NCBI GenBank assembly: GCA_000687655.1
Contig: JHWR01000008.1
Coordinates: 62,001 to 126,000, forward strand
Direction of reading: 5' to 3'
Length of the DNA: 64,000 nucleotides
Origin: Lachnospiraceae bacterium YSB2008
Lineage (GTDB): Bacteria > Bacillota > Clostridia > Lachnospirales > Lachnospiraceae
A program made the translations under genes and the position numbers. The notes below the pieces were generated by a model. It saw nothing but the letters and a program-made list of their open reading frames with translations. It was not told the origin of the DNA and did no database searches. Below are positions 26,410 through 36,965 of this stretch, piece by piece; position 1 is the stretch's first letter, and every line of letters starts with the position of its first letter.

Positions 26410-26482
26410 ATTATTTTTGGAATTATGGTAGTATAAGCTTGGTGTGTTGTGCACAAAAGTATCATTAAGTGGGGGAATTCAT

Positions 26483-28507
26483 ATGTTTAATAATAAGAAT
26501 CTAAAAAACAAATGGAACGTTTTCAAAGAAAACAGTCCTACATCACACATCTGTTTCCTGATCATAGTTGTCAATGTAATATTCATAGCATTGTCAGCCG
26601 TCCTTATTTCTATACTTCCGGAAAATGAAGGGCATTCCATTCCTGAACTGGTACGCCTTGCATTTACACTTATGGTCAATCCGAGTGGTAGATATATTTA
26701 TAGTGATACTTCTATTTCACGTATCGTAACTACCATAGTCGTTCTTCTTGGTATGGTTTCTCTTACCGGTGGTACTGTCGGTTTCGTGACCAGTGTCATT
26801 AACGGTGTTTTGGAGAAGGCTGCAAACAGCCAGAGAGCTCTCAATCTTGAGAATCATATAGTTATACTCAATTATAATAATAAGGTTCCTTCAACAATAG
26901 TTGATTATGGTTTCGATGATGTAAAGAATACATTCATAGTTATTCTTGCCAATGGTAACAAGCAGCGTATCCAGGACGAGATAGACGGTATGTATGACAG
27001 AGAGGGAAATAAGAAACGTTTCAAGAATATTATTGTAAGAGACGGCGATCCTATGAATAAGCTGGATCTGGACAAGATCAATCTTGGTAAAGCAAGAACA
27101 GTTCTGCTCATGACACCGGGCTTTGGCGAAGGAAGCACCATGCATAAAACAGCAAATGGTGATGATATGAACTTTGAAGTGTCGAAGCTGTTCATGTTCG
27201 TAACATGGTATTTTTCTGAGCTGGAAACTGCTTCAAGTACCAATATAGTAGTTGAGACAAGCAGCAAAAACATGGAGAAAATGATAGGCGATTATCATAG
27301 GGAAAGCAGCACCCAGATGTCGGTATCAGTAAACTATAACGAGATTACCGGAAAGATGATAGCTGTTACCTCCATAATGCCTTCAGTTAATCCTGTAATG
27401 AAACAGCTCTTCAGTTTCAAGGGTGTTGAAGTTTATATAGAGGAACCTCCAAAAGGTAAATCTATAGAGGATGAGCTTCTTGAGAACAGATCAGTCATCC
27501 CGATGTTCGATCTTCCGGACGGAAGAGTATATGTTGCTGAAAATGAGGAAGAACTTGATAAGAGAAAGAGTAGATTTGAACTTTCCAAGCCTCTTCCGGC
27601 AAAGAAAATTGTTCCAAAGATTAATTTTGAAAAGTCCAATATAATCATTGTCGGTGTGAACAAGAAGCTTCCATATATACTTGAAAGCTTAGTATGTTTC
27701 AAGAGAGAATATGAAAATGATCAGCTCACAGTCCTTCTTGCAGGTTCTCCTGATGAAGAAGAACAGCTTAAGGCGTATTATGCGGATTCAAAATATGAAA
27801 CTATCCTGCTTCCTGATAAATATAATTATGTTATAGTAAATGACCTTTACGATCCGATGAAGGAACTTGGCGGGCTTACATCAGACAGAGCTGACTCCGT
27901 AATATTCCTTTCAAACGACATGGTAACAAGTGCGCATATAGATGAAAAACCTCTTATGTACTGGTCAAATCTGAAGAAATCCTTCAGAAAGAATGAGAAT
28001 GTTGATGTAATAGTCGAGATACTTGATTCACAGAACCAGAGTATCATCGAACTTAAGAATAAAGATCAGATCATAGTAAGTGATGAATTCCTCGGACATG
28101 TATATGCCCAGCTTGGAAAGAATCCGAAGAGAATAGATGTTATCAAGGATATGATCACTTCCGACGGAGATTCTTCTTCAGTGAACGTTGATCAGGAAGA
28201 AGAAAACGACAGCGATCTTGTCTGCGTTGGGGTTAAGCACTTCTTTGATGGTGCGGATGTTGACCTTACTTTTAAATCCAAGAGAGAACTCATCATATGG
28301 GTTTATGAGGCAACAGATCACAGAGCACTTCCTATAGGTGTCGTAAAAGATTCTGTAGAATACATATTCTCAAGAACAGATGGAAATGATGATGACCTTG
28401 ACAGCACAATACTTCTCGGTGTTGAAGAGGGACAGTATTATCCGGGTAACAGTGATAAGATAGTACTTGAAGAAGATGATGAACTTGTAGTGCTTATGCT
28501 TAACTGA
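26483..28507 (+). CDS. CASTOR/POLLUX-type ion channel protein with RCK-like domains
   Basis: 674 residues from ATG 26483 (GGGGGA 7 nt upstream). Two membrane helices are visible, about 20-43 and 84-108, the second with G-M-V-S-L-T-G-G-T-V-G-F. The linker between them would hold the pore; no K+-channel T-V-G-Y-G filter is present. Two nucleotide-binding-like (RCK/TrkA-N) regions follow: N-H-I-V-I-L-N-Y near 117 and N-I-I-I-V-G-V-N near 388. This architecture is that of the CASTOR/POLLUX/DMI1 family, whose plant members are nuclear-envelope cation channels; bacterial members are little studied. The ion and the gating ligand cannot be read. The small lipoprotein gene begins 16 bp after the stop and the radical SAM gene after that, so all three are probably cotranscribed. 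Confidence 0.8.
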   Translation: MFNNKNLKNKWNVFKENSPTSHICFLIIVVNVIFIALSAVLISILPENEGHSIPELVRLAFTLMVNPSGRYIYSDTSISRIVTTIVVLLGMVSLTGGTVGFVTSVINGVLEKAANSQRALNLENHIVILNYNNKVPSTIVDYGFDDVKNTFIVILANGNKQRIQDEIDGMYDREGNKKRFKNIIVRDGDPMNKLDLDKINLGKARTVLLMTPGFGEGSTMHKTANGDDMNFEVSKLFMFVTWYFSELETASSTNIVVETSSKNMEKMIGDYHRESSTQMSVSVNYNEITGKMIAVTSIMPSVNPVMKQLFSFKGVEVYIEEPPKGKSIEDELLENRSVIPMFDLPDGRVYVAENEEELDKRKSRFELSKPLPAKKIVPKINFEKSNIIIVGVNKKLPYILESLVCFKREYENDQLTVLLAGSPDEEEQLKAYYADSKYETILLPDKYNYVIVNDLYDPMKELGGLTSDRADSVIFLSNDMVTSAHIDEKPLMYWSNLKKSFRKNENVDVIVEILDSQNQSIIELKNKDQIIVSDEFLGHVYAQLGKNPKRIDVIKDMITSDGDSSSVNVDQEEENDSDLVCVGVKHFFDGADVDLTFKSKRELIIWVYEATDHRALPIGVVKDSVEYIFSRTDGNDDDLDSTILLGVEEGQYYPGNSDKIVLEEDDELVVLMLN

Positions 28508-28523
28508 TATAAGGAGGTATTCC

Positions 28524-28784
28524 ATGAAGGTTAATCCAAAGAAAGCGATGCTTATCGGACTTGCAGCATGTACCCTTTTCGGGACCACAAGCTGTGGAGT
28601 AGAGGAAAATGTTGAGCCGGATGTATATGGTCCGCCTTCAGATATTGAAGTGGATGTCGATGATACAGAGGAAGAGACGACTGCTGAAGATAAGAACAGC
28701 AAGGATGACAAGACTGCTACAGAAGAGGTGACTGTGGATGATAATGAACCATCTGTAGTTTATGGACCTCCGACAGATGAATGA
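28524..28784 (+). CDS. small acidic lipoprotein with paired V-Y-G-P-P motifs, candidate radical SAM substrate
   Basis: 86 residues behind a perfect AAGGAGG (28511-28517). Residues 1-23 form a lipoprotein signal peptide; the likely lipidated residue is C24 (T-T-S-C, not ideal at -3), while L-A-A-C at 13-16 fits the lipobox better but leaves too short a hydrophobic core. The rest is strongly acidic (Asp, Glu, Thr) and probably unfolded. V-Y-G-P-P-S-D (34-40) and V-Y-G-P-P-T-D (79-85) stand at either end of it, the second at the very C-terminus. No enzyme motif is present. With a radical SAM/SPASM gene 17 bp downstream, the Tyr-Gly-Pro-Pro sites look like modification targets. That is inference from context and repeat pattern; a structural lipoprotein is the alternative. 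Confidence 0.75.
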   Translation: MKVNPKKAMLIGLAACTLFGTTSCGVEENVEPDVYGPPSDIEVDVDDTEEETTAEDKNSKDDKTATEEVTVDDNEPSVVYGPPTDE

Positions 28785-28801
28785 TGCGAAAGGCATGAGT
28801 T

Positions 28802-29872
28802 ATGACAAAAGAAGAGATTAAGCGAAAGAATCTTGATACTCTGGCCGAGCATCAGGCAAAGCTCTGTAAGACGCCTGAACTCAGGACGCTTTTCTTTGAA
28901 CTTACGTTGAAATGTAATGAGAGATGTTTTCATTGCGGAAGCGGTTGCTCTGCAGATATGCCGGACGGGCTTCCCGTATCGAAGTATATGGAGATTCTTG
29001 ATGAGGTCAAAGAGAATTTCGGGACCGGAGTATATATAGCGCTTACCGGCGGCGAACCGCTTATGTATAAGGATTTCTTTCTGCTTACAGAATATATACA
29101 GAAGCTTGGCTTCAGGTGGGGCATGACCAGTAATGCAACCCTTATAACAAAGGATGTTGCAGAAAAGCTCAGAGATACCGGGATGAGAGGTGTCTCTGTA
29201 AGCATAGATGGGCTTCCGGAAACCCATGACCGCTACAGAAATTTTCCGAATGGCTTTGACAAGGCTATGACCGGAATTCAGAATATGATAGATGCCGGTG
29301 GTATCGGTTCCATAATGGTCACAACCGTGGTCAATCATGAGAACATTAAGGAACTGGACGCGCTGTATGACATATTCAATGATGTAGATATAAATGAATG
29401 GCGGCTTACCGGGCTTGAGCCTATAGGACGCGCCATGGATCATCCGGACATGCTTCTCACCCCGGATGATAATAAGTATCTCATGGAATTCATTACAATG
29501 AAGAGAGAGAAGAAGATACCGGTTGAGTATTCCTGCTGTCATTTCCTCGGTGAGGAATATGAAGCGGAAGTCAGAGACTGGTATTTCCTATGTAATGCAG
29601 GGATATATGTTGCAGGAATAATGGCAGACGGCGCTGTAGGTGCCTGCCTTGATATTCCACGAAATGAAAGAACTGTTCAGGGCAATGTACTGGAAAAATC
29701 ATTTACCGACATATGGAAAAATGAATTCAAACTGTTCAGGACACCATTATATAATCTGAATGAAACCTGCATGGACTGTCCTGAGAAGAAGTACTGCCGC
29801 GGCGGTTCATATCATAGCTGGGACTATGATGATGATCACCAGAAGGTGTGCTTCAAAAATGTTTTATTCTAA
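28802..29872 (+). CDS. radical SAM enzyme with SPASM domain (probable peptide/protein maturase)
   Basis: 356 residues. The radical SAM cluster is C38-x3-C42-x2-C45 in L-T-L-K-C-N-E-R-C-F-H-C; a further Cys is at 49. A-L-T-G-G-E-P-L is the SAM-binding G-G-E-P motif. The C-terminal SPASM region supplies the cysteines for auxiliary clusters: C-N-A-G, G-A-C-L-D and C-M-D-C-P-E-K-K-Y-C-R-G-G, then a last Cys near the end. Radical SAM/SPASM enzymes commonly modify peptides: sactionine, cyclophane or epimerisation chemistry, or anaerobic sulfatase-type oxidation. The tiny lipoprotein gene directly upstream is the natural candidate substrate. No transporter or peptidase gene is adjacent. nnr begins 40 bp downstream and may be a separate unit. 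Confidence 0.9.
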   Translation: MTKEEIKRKNLDTLAEHQAKLCKTPELRTLFFELTLKCNERCFHCGSGCSADMPDGLPVSKYMEILDEVKENFGTGVYIALTGGEPLMYKDFFLLTEYIQKLGFRWGMTSNATLITKDVAEKLRDTGMRGVSVSIDGLPETHDRYRNFPNGFDKAMTGIQNMIDAGGIGSIMVTTVVNHENIKELDALYDIFNDVDINEWRLTGLEPIGRAMDHPDMLLTPDDNKYLMEFITMKREKKIPVEYSCCHFLGEEYEAEVRDWYFLCNAGIYVAGIMADGAVGACLDIPRNERTVQGNVLEKSFTDIWKNEFKLFRTPLYNLNETCMDCPEKKYCRGGSYHSWDYDDDHQKVCFKNVLF

Positions 29873-34346: not shown

Positions 34347-36965
34347 ATGAAAAAGAGTATTAAAAGATTTATGGCGTTCTGCCTGTCAGCTCTGATGGTT
34401 CTCAGTCTGATTACGGGCTGTGGAGAACAAAAAGGAACGATACAGAATGTAACAGTAAGTGATGAGGGACTGGTAGAATGGGATCCTGTCAAGGGTGCCG
34501 AGTCATATAATGTTGTTATGATATATCAGGGAGAAGATGGGACACCTACCAGTTTTACATCGGAGAATATCACTGAAACATCATATCAGCTGTCAAAAGG
34601 ATTCTCAATACAGATAAGCGCGGTATATCCTGATGGGTATGAGGGACCGAATTACGTGACAGATTACTTTGGTGGTGCGGAAACCCCTGATGCTGTTAAG
34701 AACGGCTATTTTGACGACGGTTCGGAAATCTCAAAGTACATGCTGAGTCTTCCTACATGGGATTTCGTAAAATCCATAGATGAATCCAGTGTTAAGAAAG
34801 AAAGCGATGGTACGGTAAGCTTTTCTTCAATCGGTCCGGACGGCAATCCTGTCCGATTCACAGGCGAGGATATAGAAGTAAATGAAGACAGTATAGTACT
34901 TCATAAAGATGCCAGAATGATGTCTCTGGACAGTATAGGCCGAATCTATGGAGTGTCAATCGAAGTGAGTGACCCGGGAGACGAGAATAATTCCGTTATG
35001 TATTTCGGAGGTTATAATGTTGATAATGATCCGAATCCCGGCACGCTTGACAGAATGGTATTTACCGGAGGGTTTGGAACATACGCTTCGGAACAGATGA
35101 ATGACATTACTATTGACACAAATTCATTCAGAACGCTTCAGCCTAATTTCATCGGAGTAGGTGTATCCGATTATCTGCATGAAGTAAACGATTATCCAAA
35201 CGTGGATGATGTAACCATATCAGGATGTTCTGTTGTGTATGAGAATACATCCATGGTCACTCCATTTAAAGAGCTCGTTCTTTCTGAAGACAATTATGGA
35301 GCGTATTTTGAAGGCGATGAATATGATACATCCAGGGAAAGGTTTGATCCATATAACAGTATTTTTGATTTCAGACTTTACGCAATTCCGGAACTGGATC
35401 ATGAGGATCTTTTGGAATCCGATGTTGAGTCAGCAAAATCTGATTACAATGATTATGCTGCATATGCCACTGAGGGCGGATACTACAAAATAGATGGAAT
35501 AAAGAAAAAAGACGGAAGCATCGTTGACAGGGAAAATGAATCGCTGGAGGAAGGAGATGCACTCGCAGTTACTTTTGGTAAAACAGAGTATGATGTACCG
35601 TTCAGTTTTATCAAATCGTACGAGGGTGCAGAGAATATGCATGATCTCGTTCCTTATGCATTCCATGAAGGTACAGGTGATCTTAAGGCACTTGTGGTTC
35701 CGATAGGATGGCAGGATGAAACTGAATATACAAGCGATACCGAGCTTGATACTATCAGGAAGAAGCTTGGCCGTGTTGAGGGTGAAAATGGACAGATAAC
35801 TGACTATACAGATGAAGCTTCTCCTTTCTATTCTCTCAGTAAGTATTATGATACTGCTTCTTATGGCAAGCTTAACCTGGTTTCATATATTACTGAATGG
35901 TATATCGCACCTCATGATTTTTCTGAATATAAAGCAGAAGCATTAGATGAAAGCTTTATCGATGAAGTACGTGACTGGATAAGTGCAACTTATCCCGATA
36001 AGGACTGGTCAGAATTTGATAAAGACGGTGATGGATATTTTGACGCAGTTGTATTCCTGAATACAGGTGATATGTCTGATTCGGATGAGTATGTCACCAT
36101 ATCTTTCGGCGGTGCTATCCAGTACAGACAGACTTATGGAAATGAACTGGCAGGTGATAATTCCCGTCTTGGAATGAACAATGTCGTTAATATGAATTAT
36201 GGGCATCTCAATGAAGAGGGTATGCAGAATACACTTATCCATGAGTTCGGTCATGGATTCGGACTTATAGATTATTATGATGTTTCATACAGCGGAAGAA
36301 ATGCAGTCGGTGGATATGATATGCAGTCCGACAACGTCGGTGACTGGAATGCATATTCCAAATATGCTGTCGGCTGGATAGAACCGAAGACAGTTAATGA
36401 CCTTGCTTCAGGAGAATCTGTTGAGTTAGAGATAGGCAGCTTTGCAGGAACAGGAGATGCAATTGTTATACCTGCTGCAGGCGATGGCAGCAGCGGTCCA
36501 TTTTCAGAATATATGCTCGTGGATCTTTTCACACCTACAGGTGTTAATCAGCATGATGCAGCGGGTTATGGACTTGGTGATACCACGGCTGTTCAGATAT
36601 ACCATGTTGATGCACGTATGGAGTACAGGGATTTTGTTTCTTCTGAACATCCGGATATGACTCCGTGTCCTATAGGAACTGTGCATTTTGCAAATGATTT
36701 CAAACCGACCGGATGTTATAATCTTGAGCTGATACAGGCAGGCGGACGCAATACATTTACAAATCCTGAAAAAGAGGACAGAAGCATTGTTGAACCGGAT
36801 GACCTGTTCAAGGCCGGAGATGTATTCACTACAGAAAAATACAGTGAATTCTTTAAAGACGGAAAGTTCGATAACGGAAAAGATTTCGGTTATTCCATTG
36901 AAGTTGTAAGTATTTCAGGAAGCGGCGATGATGCACACGCAGTAATTAAAATTACTAAGGAATAA
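34347..36965 (+). CDS. lipoprotein metalloprotease of the M6 (immune inhibitor A) type
   Basis: 872 residues. A lipoprotein signal peptide ends in L-I-T-G-C (C26). Residues ~30-110 resemble a fibronectin-III-like module. The catalytic region has H632-E-F-G-H636-G-F-G-L-I-D642, the H-E-x-x-H-x-x-G-x-x-D zinc signature, followed by Y-Y-D-V and G-G-Y-D-M-Q-S, which matches the Met-turn of M6 proteases. The D-K-D-G-D-G-Y stretch before it looks like a calcium-binding loop. So this should be a zinc protease tethered to the outer membrane face, degrading proteins outside the cell. The N-terminal ~450 residues beyond the first module are unassigned. It stands alone between a terminator and a promoter. 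Confidence 0.85.
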   Translation: MKKSIKRFMAFCLSALMVLSLITGCGEQKGTIQNVTVSDEGLVEWDPVKGAESYNVVMIYQGEDGTPTSFTSENITETSYQLSKGFSIQISAVYPDGYEGPNYVTDYFGGAETPDAVKNGYFDDGSEISKYMLSLPTWDFVKSIDESSVKKESDGTVSFSSIGPDGNPVRFTGEDIEVNEDSIVLHKDARMMSLDSIGRIYGVSIEVSDPGDENNSVMYFGGYNVDNDPNPGTLDRMVFTGGFGTYASEQMNDITIDTNSFRTLQPNFIGVGVSDYLHEVNDYPNVDDVTISGCSVVYENTSMVTPFKELVLSEDNYGAYFEGDEYDTSRERFDPYNSIFDFRLYAIPELDHEDLLESDVESAKSDYNDYAAYATEGGYYKIDGIKKKDGSIVDRENESLEEGDALAVTFGKTEYDVPFSFIKSYEGAENMHDLVPYAFHEGTGDLKALVVPIGWQDETEYTSDTELDTIRKKLGRVEGENGQITDYTDEASPFYSLSKYYDTASYGKLNLVSYITEWYIAPHDFSEYKAEALDESFIDEVRDWISATYPDKDWSEFDKDGDGYFDAVVFLNTGDMSDSDEYVTISFGGAIQYRQTYGNELAGDNSRLGMNNVVNMNYGHLNEEGMQNTLIHEFGHGFGLIDYYDVSYSGRNAVGGYDMQSDNVGDWNAYSKYAVGWIEPKTVNDLASGESVELEIGSFAGTGDAIVIPAAGDGSSGPFSEYMLVDLFTPTGVNQHDAAGYGLGDTTAVQIYHVDARMEYRDFVSSEHPDMTPCPIGTVHFANDFKPTGCYNLELIQAGGRNTFTNPEKEDRSIVEPDDLFKAGDVFTTEKYSEFFKDGKFDNGKDFGYSIEVVSISGSGDDAHAVIKITKE

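Follow-up and report, generated by a model that had tools for sequence, protein, structure and literature searches.

Crosslinks are a frequent product of SPASM enzymes, and SkfB and SuiB are crosslinking enzymes; anSME oxidises the Cys or Ser of a short motif on full-size proteins, and the Val-Tyr target of MftC is C-terminal. Wide use of a further reaction, splicing, is said to have been described by Scott et al. 2022 (Chem 8:2659), a study that may already cover part of the enzyme family found here beside proteins with the motif YGPP. In the available excerpts of the report on the PlpXY splicease, the enzyme excises tyramine (C8H9NO) at X-Tyr-Gly, the natural sites are MYG and LYG, and the leader is dispensable (PMC10533398). 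The same excerpts give the tags derived from PlpA2 as PIRP[L/G]YGLPI; a tag in the GYG form underwent splicing on an Affibody, and most tag placements in FtsZ, including both LYG tags, were left unspliced (PMC10533398). They also contain a second tag series, AVAAGYGVVFP, presumably derived from PlpA3, which has no Pro three residues past the Tyr, so that YGxP is not a general splicease motif (PMC10533398). PlpX is described in part of another report as working with the RRE protein PlpY, and IPR026482 is named for it (PMC11002830). Excerpts of three reports describe splicing as widespread or broadly occurring, with several events per precursor and with protease inhibitors as products (PMC11002830, PMC10373908, PMC11273373). 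For MftC, the available text gives decarboxylation and formation of a Val-Tyr bridge (PMC8326336).

We analyzed a gene pair from a 64-kb stretch of DNA, the whole of which is called the window here (Table 1). A preliminary description had reported an acidic lipoprotein of 86 residues that ends in VYGPPTDE and holds a second VYGPP, followed 17 bp downstream by a radical SAM/SPASM gene, and the reading frames and the Pfam domains bear this out. It had also placed a VYGPP right after the lipidation site; the repeat is real, but it begins ten residues past the lipidation-type Cys 24, so that the wording was approximate. The N-terminus is a signal peptide with the lipobox T-T-S-C, which is weak at position -3, and the tail is acidic, with 23 Asp or Glu against 3 Lys in its 63 residues. 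No Pfam or NCBIfam family matched the lipoprotein above its cut-off. YGPP-coding DNA occurs at two sites in the window, both in the lipoprotein gene, where 0.31 would be expected, and 4 of 100 shuffled windows had at least two such sites. Among 200,000 shuffles of the lipoprotein, 151 contained at least one YGPP and none contained two. The shuffles of window and protein, together with the zero copies in the control ORFs described below, lead us to reject a chance repeat of YGPP; the observation of a lipoprotein with VYGPP beside a radical SAM/SPASM gene is confirmed. Elsewhere in the window, the product of the gene preceding the lipoprotein (26444-28507) is a large membrane protein whose RCK-type match is weak and below cut-off, and 34347-36965 encodes a large secreted lipoprotein-like protein whose match to an M6 metalloprotease domain reached 96 bits against a cut-off of 110.8 bits.

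Table 1. Positions, in the window, of the two genes and of the elements within and before them
Feature	Position	Strand	Basis
Ribosome-binding-site-like AAGGAGG, 5' of the lipoprotein gene	28511..28517	+	Read from the sequence; role presumed
Acidic lipoprotein, 86 aa, two VYGPP; presumed substrate	28524..28784	+	ORF call and homologs
Codon of lipidation-type Cys 24	28593..28595	+	All 18 rows of alignment A2 share this Cys; lipidation presumed
VYGPP motif 1, residues 34-38	28623..28637	+	Read from the ORF
VYGPP motif 2, residues 79-83	28758..28772	+	All 18 rows of A2 have Y80, G81, P82 and P83
Radical SAM/SPASM enzyme, 356 aa; presumed modifying enzyme	28802..29872	+	ORF, alignment and predicted model
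Radical SAM cluster motif C38-x3-C42-x2-C45, then G46-S47	28913..28936	+	Alignment
SPASM auxiliary-cluster domain, residues 264-327	29591..29782	+	Pfam PF13186

The window enzyme carries the Pfam domains Radical_SAM (92 bits) and SPASM (34.7 bits), both above their cut-offs, and the CX3CX2C motif, which places it among the radical SAM/SPASM peptide-modifying enzymes. Its AlphaFold2 model had a mean pLDDT of 87.7, and the closest folds in the PDB were SkfB, SuiB, BlsE and anSME, which are SPASM and related radical SAM enzymes.

We searched 99 genomes: that of the window, a further 60 from its genus and 38 from its order. Enzymes of the same clade (49-100% identical) were found in 17 of them, all of the genus and the window's own included, with that of genome G034 being a fragment; more distant relatives occurred in three further genomes (G027, 42%; G075 and G085, 27-30%). 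At 11 of the 17 same-genus loci, a YGPP lipoprotein with 2-7 VYGPP copies lies directly upstream of the enzyme. Five others (L008, L009, L012, L014 and L016) have at this place a zinc-ribbon membrane protein without YGPP, which is conserved among them (L008:2568-3272, L009:2592-3275, L012:2652-3404, L014:2594-3379 and L016:739-1470). The genomes of these five carry YGPP lipoproteins elsewhere: 5.6-5.7 kb from the enzyme in G044, G021 and G001, in G007 among five unlinked lipoprotein genes, of which four have YGPP and the fifth has YGPA/YGAP only, and in G026 as a fragment truncated by the contig edge. This suggests that the enzyme can have unlinked substrates. YGPP was not seen at the seventeenth, truncated locus, that of G034, where a lipoprotein start is fused into the truncated radical SAM gene (L257:1503-2050) and the locus is decayed or misassembled.

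Alignment A2, which comprises 18 lipoproteins, has as its only invariant columns K2, C24, P37 and Y80-G81-P82-P83. When its profile was searched over the same 99 genomes, matches at E ≤ 1.3e-8 appeared in 16 of the 17 that hold the enzyme clade and in none of the 82 that lack it (Fisher p 1.5e-17), although the profile was built partly from genomes that it then matched, the threshold was chosen after the matches had been viewed, and the match in G034 spans only the signal peptide of the truncated locus. The contig-edge piece of G026, the remaining genome with the enzyme clade, matched at E 2e-5, and the best match in a genome without the clade had an E of 3.4e-6. At E ≤ 0.01, matches occurred in 60 of the 99 genomes, the weak ones (3e-6 to 0.01) presumably reflecting general lipoprotein signal peptides.

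The enzyme alignment A1, used as a query, gave at least 581 relatives, of which the best 80 (L049-L128) were used; these were picked by enzyme similarity alone, and the precursors played no part in the choice. The records come from Lachnospiraceae, Ruminococcus, Oscillospiraceae, Clostridia and others, and are mainly rumen or gut MAGs. At 78 of these 80 loci, the best of at least 581, a YGPP protein was present. The YGPP ORF lies within 300 bp upstream of the enzyme at 73 loci (median gap 19 bp; at least two copies at 68), 5.6-5.7 kb upstream at two and downstream at two. At L055, which the automatic count did not score, the contig starts inside a precursor ending in VYGPPEDMP; L058 has none at the locus and a five-copy YGPP lipoprotein elsewhere in its genome, and for L060 no YGPP lipoprotein was found with the lipoprotein profile. 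The 113 YGPP ORFs of these loci, which were selected for YGPP, contain 346 copies in 19,624 residues, and 428 other mechanical ORFs from the same loci (at least 100 aa, on the minus strand or more than 2 kb downstream) contain 0 in 147,733 residues. In an even draw of the class, 16 of 391 genomes had the enzyme. YGPP adjoins it at 11 of the 15 loci besides the window's, and the others have YGVP (L238), MYGSP (L239) or AYG only (L240), or are cut by the contig end (L230). L238, L239 and L240 form a separate enzyme clade, and short signal-peptide or membrane proteins with MYGSP, EYAPP or just AYGID are encoded at L239:3-703 and L240:1160-1495.

We also clustered the neighboring ORFs of at least 60 aa at the 80 loci. 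The largest cluster besides the YGPP proteins covered 16 loci and, judged from a few sequence starts, looks like a set of unrelated genes; another small adjacent mechanical ORF was present at 46. A classical RiPP system with leader, RRE, exporter and protease was rejected, given that no conserved extra gene of at least 60 aa was found at the 80 loci, and at the same size limit no PlpY-like partner was seen among their conserved neighbors. That the motif and the enzyme belong together is, in our judgment, very probable.

The 113 ORFs contain 357 YGxP motifs in total. The x residue is P in 346, A in 9, V in 1 and I in 1, a preference for P that is favored by the selection of ORFs with at least one YGPP. 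The residue before the Tyr is V in 250 motifs, L in 55, A in 12, I, E and T in 8 each, M in 6, D in 4, S in 2 and another in 4. What stays constant is the motif; the proteins that carry it vary and include lipoproteins, dockerin proteins and zinc ribbons. A type I dockerin domain was detected by Pfam in 19 of the 77 nearest precursors, and in 3 of 10 in a smaller scan; this count was used in place of carrier typing by regular expression, which is rough (lipoprotein 44, dockerin-like 31, other 38). By reading, the carrier at L084 and extra genes at L117 and L122 have no signal peptide, and the carriers at L070 and L076 have a twin-arginine-like signal. Distant enzymes adjoin zinc-ribbon proteins with IYGPP (L019), LYGPP (L023), VYGSP (L024) or two YGSP (L129), the zinc ribbon being confirmed by Pfam in L019 and L023 and assigned by reading in L024 and L129. 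L129 is a single locus from a viral scan, 47% identical, and its contig is not necessarily viral. At L086:2050-6982 and L109:155-5124, eight tandem YGPP genes lie upstream of a single radical SAM gene; several of these genes have, by reading, a dockerin-like segment between the motifs, and Pfam detects a dockerin in L086:6170-6982.

The preliminary description had asked whether Y-G-P-P is the conserved part of the homologs and whether it always neighbors this type of radical SAM enzyme. It is indeed conserved, its Tyr, Gly and last Pro being common more widely as YGxP, and the motif protein is a neighbor of the enzyme or, where it was sought and found unlinked, is encoded in the same genome. 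Its idea of a lipid-anchored substrate paired with a maturase is thus supported as regards the pairing, and the lipid anchor turns out to be just one of several carriers.

The same description had left undecided whether the pair belongs to the rSAM/lipoprotein families of TIGRFAMs. The two are related, since the best NCBIfam match of the window enzyme was TIGR04133 (rSAM_w_lipo), but the score of 274.7 bits lies below the cut-off of 425 bits, and the window lipoprotein went unmatched by TIGR04134 (lipo_with_rSAM; cut-off 39.8 bits) at E ≤ 1. Membership of the window pair in TIGR04133/TIGR04134 was rejected, since it fails both cut-offs and the positive controls pass. These are pairs on plasmid records from Parabacteroides (L180), Phocaeicola (L181, an unannotated record) and Treponema (L182), which pass both cut-offs and whose enzymes scored 607.9, 617.5 and 451.4 bits, respectively, against TIGR04133. 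In a set of 21 genomes, nothing scored above the TIGR04134 cut-off. In the lipoproteins of L180, L181 and L182, the lipidation-type Cys has EYGSP, EYGTP and YGMP no more than about ten residues away. A further positive control, the clostridial lipoprotein of L241, carries MYGPP and passes TIGR04134 (52.3 against 39.8 bits); in the tree described below, the L241 enzyme clusters with the three rows of TIGR04133. Given its occurrence in pairs from Bacteroidota and Spirochaetota and in the clostridial L241 pair, Y-G-x-P seems to be the target that the superfamily has in common, as read from few non-clostridial pairs. Among the open-access matches listed, none dealt with YGPP proteins, TIGR04133/TIGR04134 or dockerin RiPPs.

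Next, we compared the system with the spliceases. The window lipoprotein has the X-Tyr-Gly of a splicease substrate twice, as VYG. The window enzyme scored 115.4 bits against TIGR04103, which we take to be the same as IPR026482 and whose cut-off is 725; the same enzyme scored higher against the AhbD (140.9) and mycofactocin MftC (120.7) families. At E ≤ 1, neither NCBIfam nor Pfam gave the lipoprotein a Nif11 or NHLP leader match. In Nostoc, an enzyme annotated as nif11-class maturase 3 (TIGR04103-type) adjoins a Nif11 precursor ending in ALYGLPPELF, and clostridial PlpX-like enzymes below the TIGR04103 cut-off (L186 and L187) have precursors with repeated PLYGI. The enzymes of these two loci have long C-terminal tails, and the precursors are small, with GG-type leaders (L186:2698-2925, L187:2656-2895).

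In a tree of 52 enzymes, the PlpX/GDL, TIGR04133, zinc-ribbon and YGPP enzymes (42 rows) were split from the 10 other rows (MftC, NirJ, AhbD-like, TIGR04347 and TIGR04053) with support of 100/97; an earlier tree of 53 rows gave the same split (97/89). Both trees are unrooted and made of hand-chosen rows, with few outgroup families and many SPASM families absent. Of the earlier 53 rows, 11 were dropped (three long branches and eight near-duplicates) and 10 were added, and the six AhbD-like rows score below the AhbD family cut-off. When both trees were pooled, C-x3-C-x2-C-G-S was found in 51 of 51 rows on the PlpX/YGPP side and in 0 of 12 others. The enzyme of a GDL-motif (TIGR03913) system groups with PlpX, and the precursors of that system begin with, for example, RMLYGG, IKPYGV or RPMYMA (L220:597-1312).

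Given the motif-enzyme link, tyramine excision is, by analogy, the probable reaction. We infer a modification with this chemistry, an order of events, lipidation and a function along the following lines. The lipoprotein would be synthesised in the cytosol and still bear its signal peptide, and the enzyme would recognise each [hydrophobic]-Tyr-Gly-x-Pro before export, by local sequence and not by a RiPP leader. In the splicease step, the tyramine part of the Tyr would be excised (C8H9NO, -135.0757 Da per site) and the carbonyls of the Tyr and of the Val before it joined, giving a Val-derived alpha-keto-beta-amino acid before Gly-Pro-Pro. Export and lipidation would then follow, so that each molecule would present two reactive ketoamides on a flexible acidic linker held at the cell surface. 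Relatives carry 1-7 copies of the motif on lipoproteins, dockerin proteins and other scaffolds. The likeliest use would be inhibition of serine or cysteine proteases by the tethered protein, although we regard protease inhibition at the surface as a tentative proposal, more easily doubted than the chemistry. The explanation as a whole, from substrate-enzyme pair through splicease chemistry to surface ketoamides, seems to us to have slightly better than an even chance.

A different outcome would be a crosslink in which the Tyr ring is joined to a neighbor, for instance the Val on its N-terminal side or the conserved Pro, forming a small cyclophane or ether with a loss of about 2 Da per YGxP. 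This is unlikely in our view, although the motif keeps its Tyr, Gly and last Pro constant (the same residues served as the search pattern) and the crosslinking enzymes SkfB and SuiB are among the closest solved folds. However, the closest motif match in the available published excerpts is LYGLP, the core of a splicease substrate (PMC10533398). The enzyme also groups with PlpX-type enzymes in the tree, and the neighbor protein at L240 retains AYG without the Pro. Another local change at the motif, namely epimerisation, hydroxylation, methylation or oxidation of the Tyr, would suit a leaderless, motif-directed action on many carriers, which resembles that of anSME, itself among the closest folds; we consider it less probable still, since the XYG match and the tree favor splicing. 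Finally, it is very improbable that the enzyme has another target, the lipoprotein being just a normal disordered protein of the cell surface, as the zinc-ribbon protein upstream of the enzyme at 5 of 17 same-genus loci might indicate, because those five genomes keep YGPP lipoproteins and because recurrence at 79 of 80 loci or in their genomes, with changing carriers, would be hard to explain. A mycofactocin-like reaction was rejected, the Val-Tyr of MftC being C-terminal and the VYG of YGPP proteins internal.

If splicing at the motif is correct, then backbone-edited proteins with beta-amino acids would be common on gut and rumen cell surfaces and on cellulosome-type docking proteins, and the family would supply protein labelling with splicing enzymes that need no leader. 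The rSAM/lipoprotein families TIGR04133 and TIGR04134 would gain a concrete target motif, with a predicted change of -135.08 Da per YGxP site. A broader proposal, to which we give somewhat less than an even chance, is that the YGPP, YGxP/TIGR04133 and PlpX enzymes form a very large leaderless splicease superfamily of gut and rumen bacteria from at least three phyla, which would install alpha-keto-beta-amino acids both in multi-headed ketoamide proteins, lipid-anchored or cellulosome-docked, that act as tethered protease inhibitors or cross-linking handles, and in intracellular zinc-ribbon proteins.

Judged from the sequences, the YGPP system appears to be a real and widespread variant of motif-directed protein modification by radical SAM enzymes. 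With TIGR04133/TIGR04134 it shares the adjacent radical SAM/SPASM enzyme and lipoprotein, and also YGxP near the lipidation-type Cys, a trait that comes from a reading of four pairs and lies outside the family's own definition. Unlike TIGR04134, the YGPP proteins are, by reading, disordered, mostly multi-copy and without the TIGR04134 tail. The system resembles anSME, which modifies a short motif in full-size proteins, in its radical SAM/SPASM enzyme and similar fold; it differs in motif and family, and in most YGPP carriers Pfam shows no enzyme domain for which the change would be required. With the spliceotides, as the available excerpts describe them, it shares X-Tyr-Gly with a hydrophobic X, several sites per substrate and a leader that is not needed (PMC10533398, PMC10373908). 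Unlike spliceotides, the YGPP substrates appear to remain cell-bound proteins that are not cut free.
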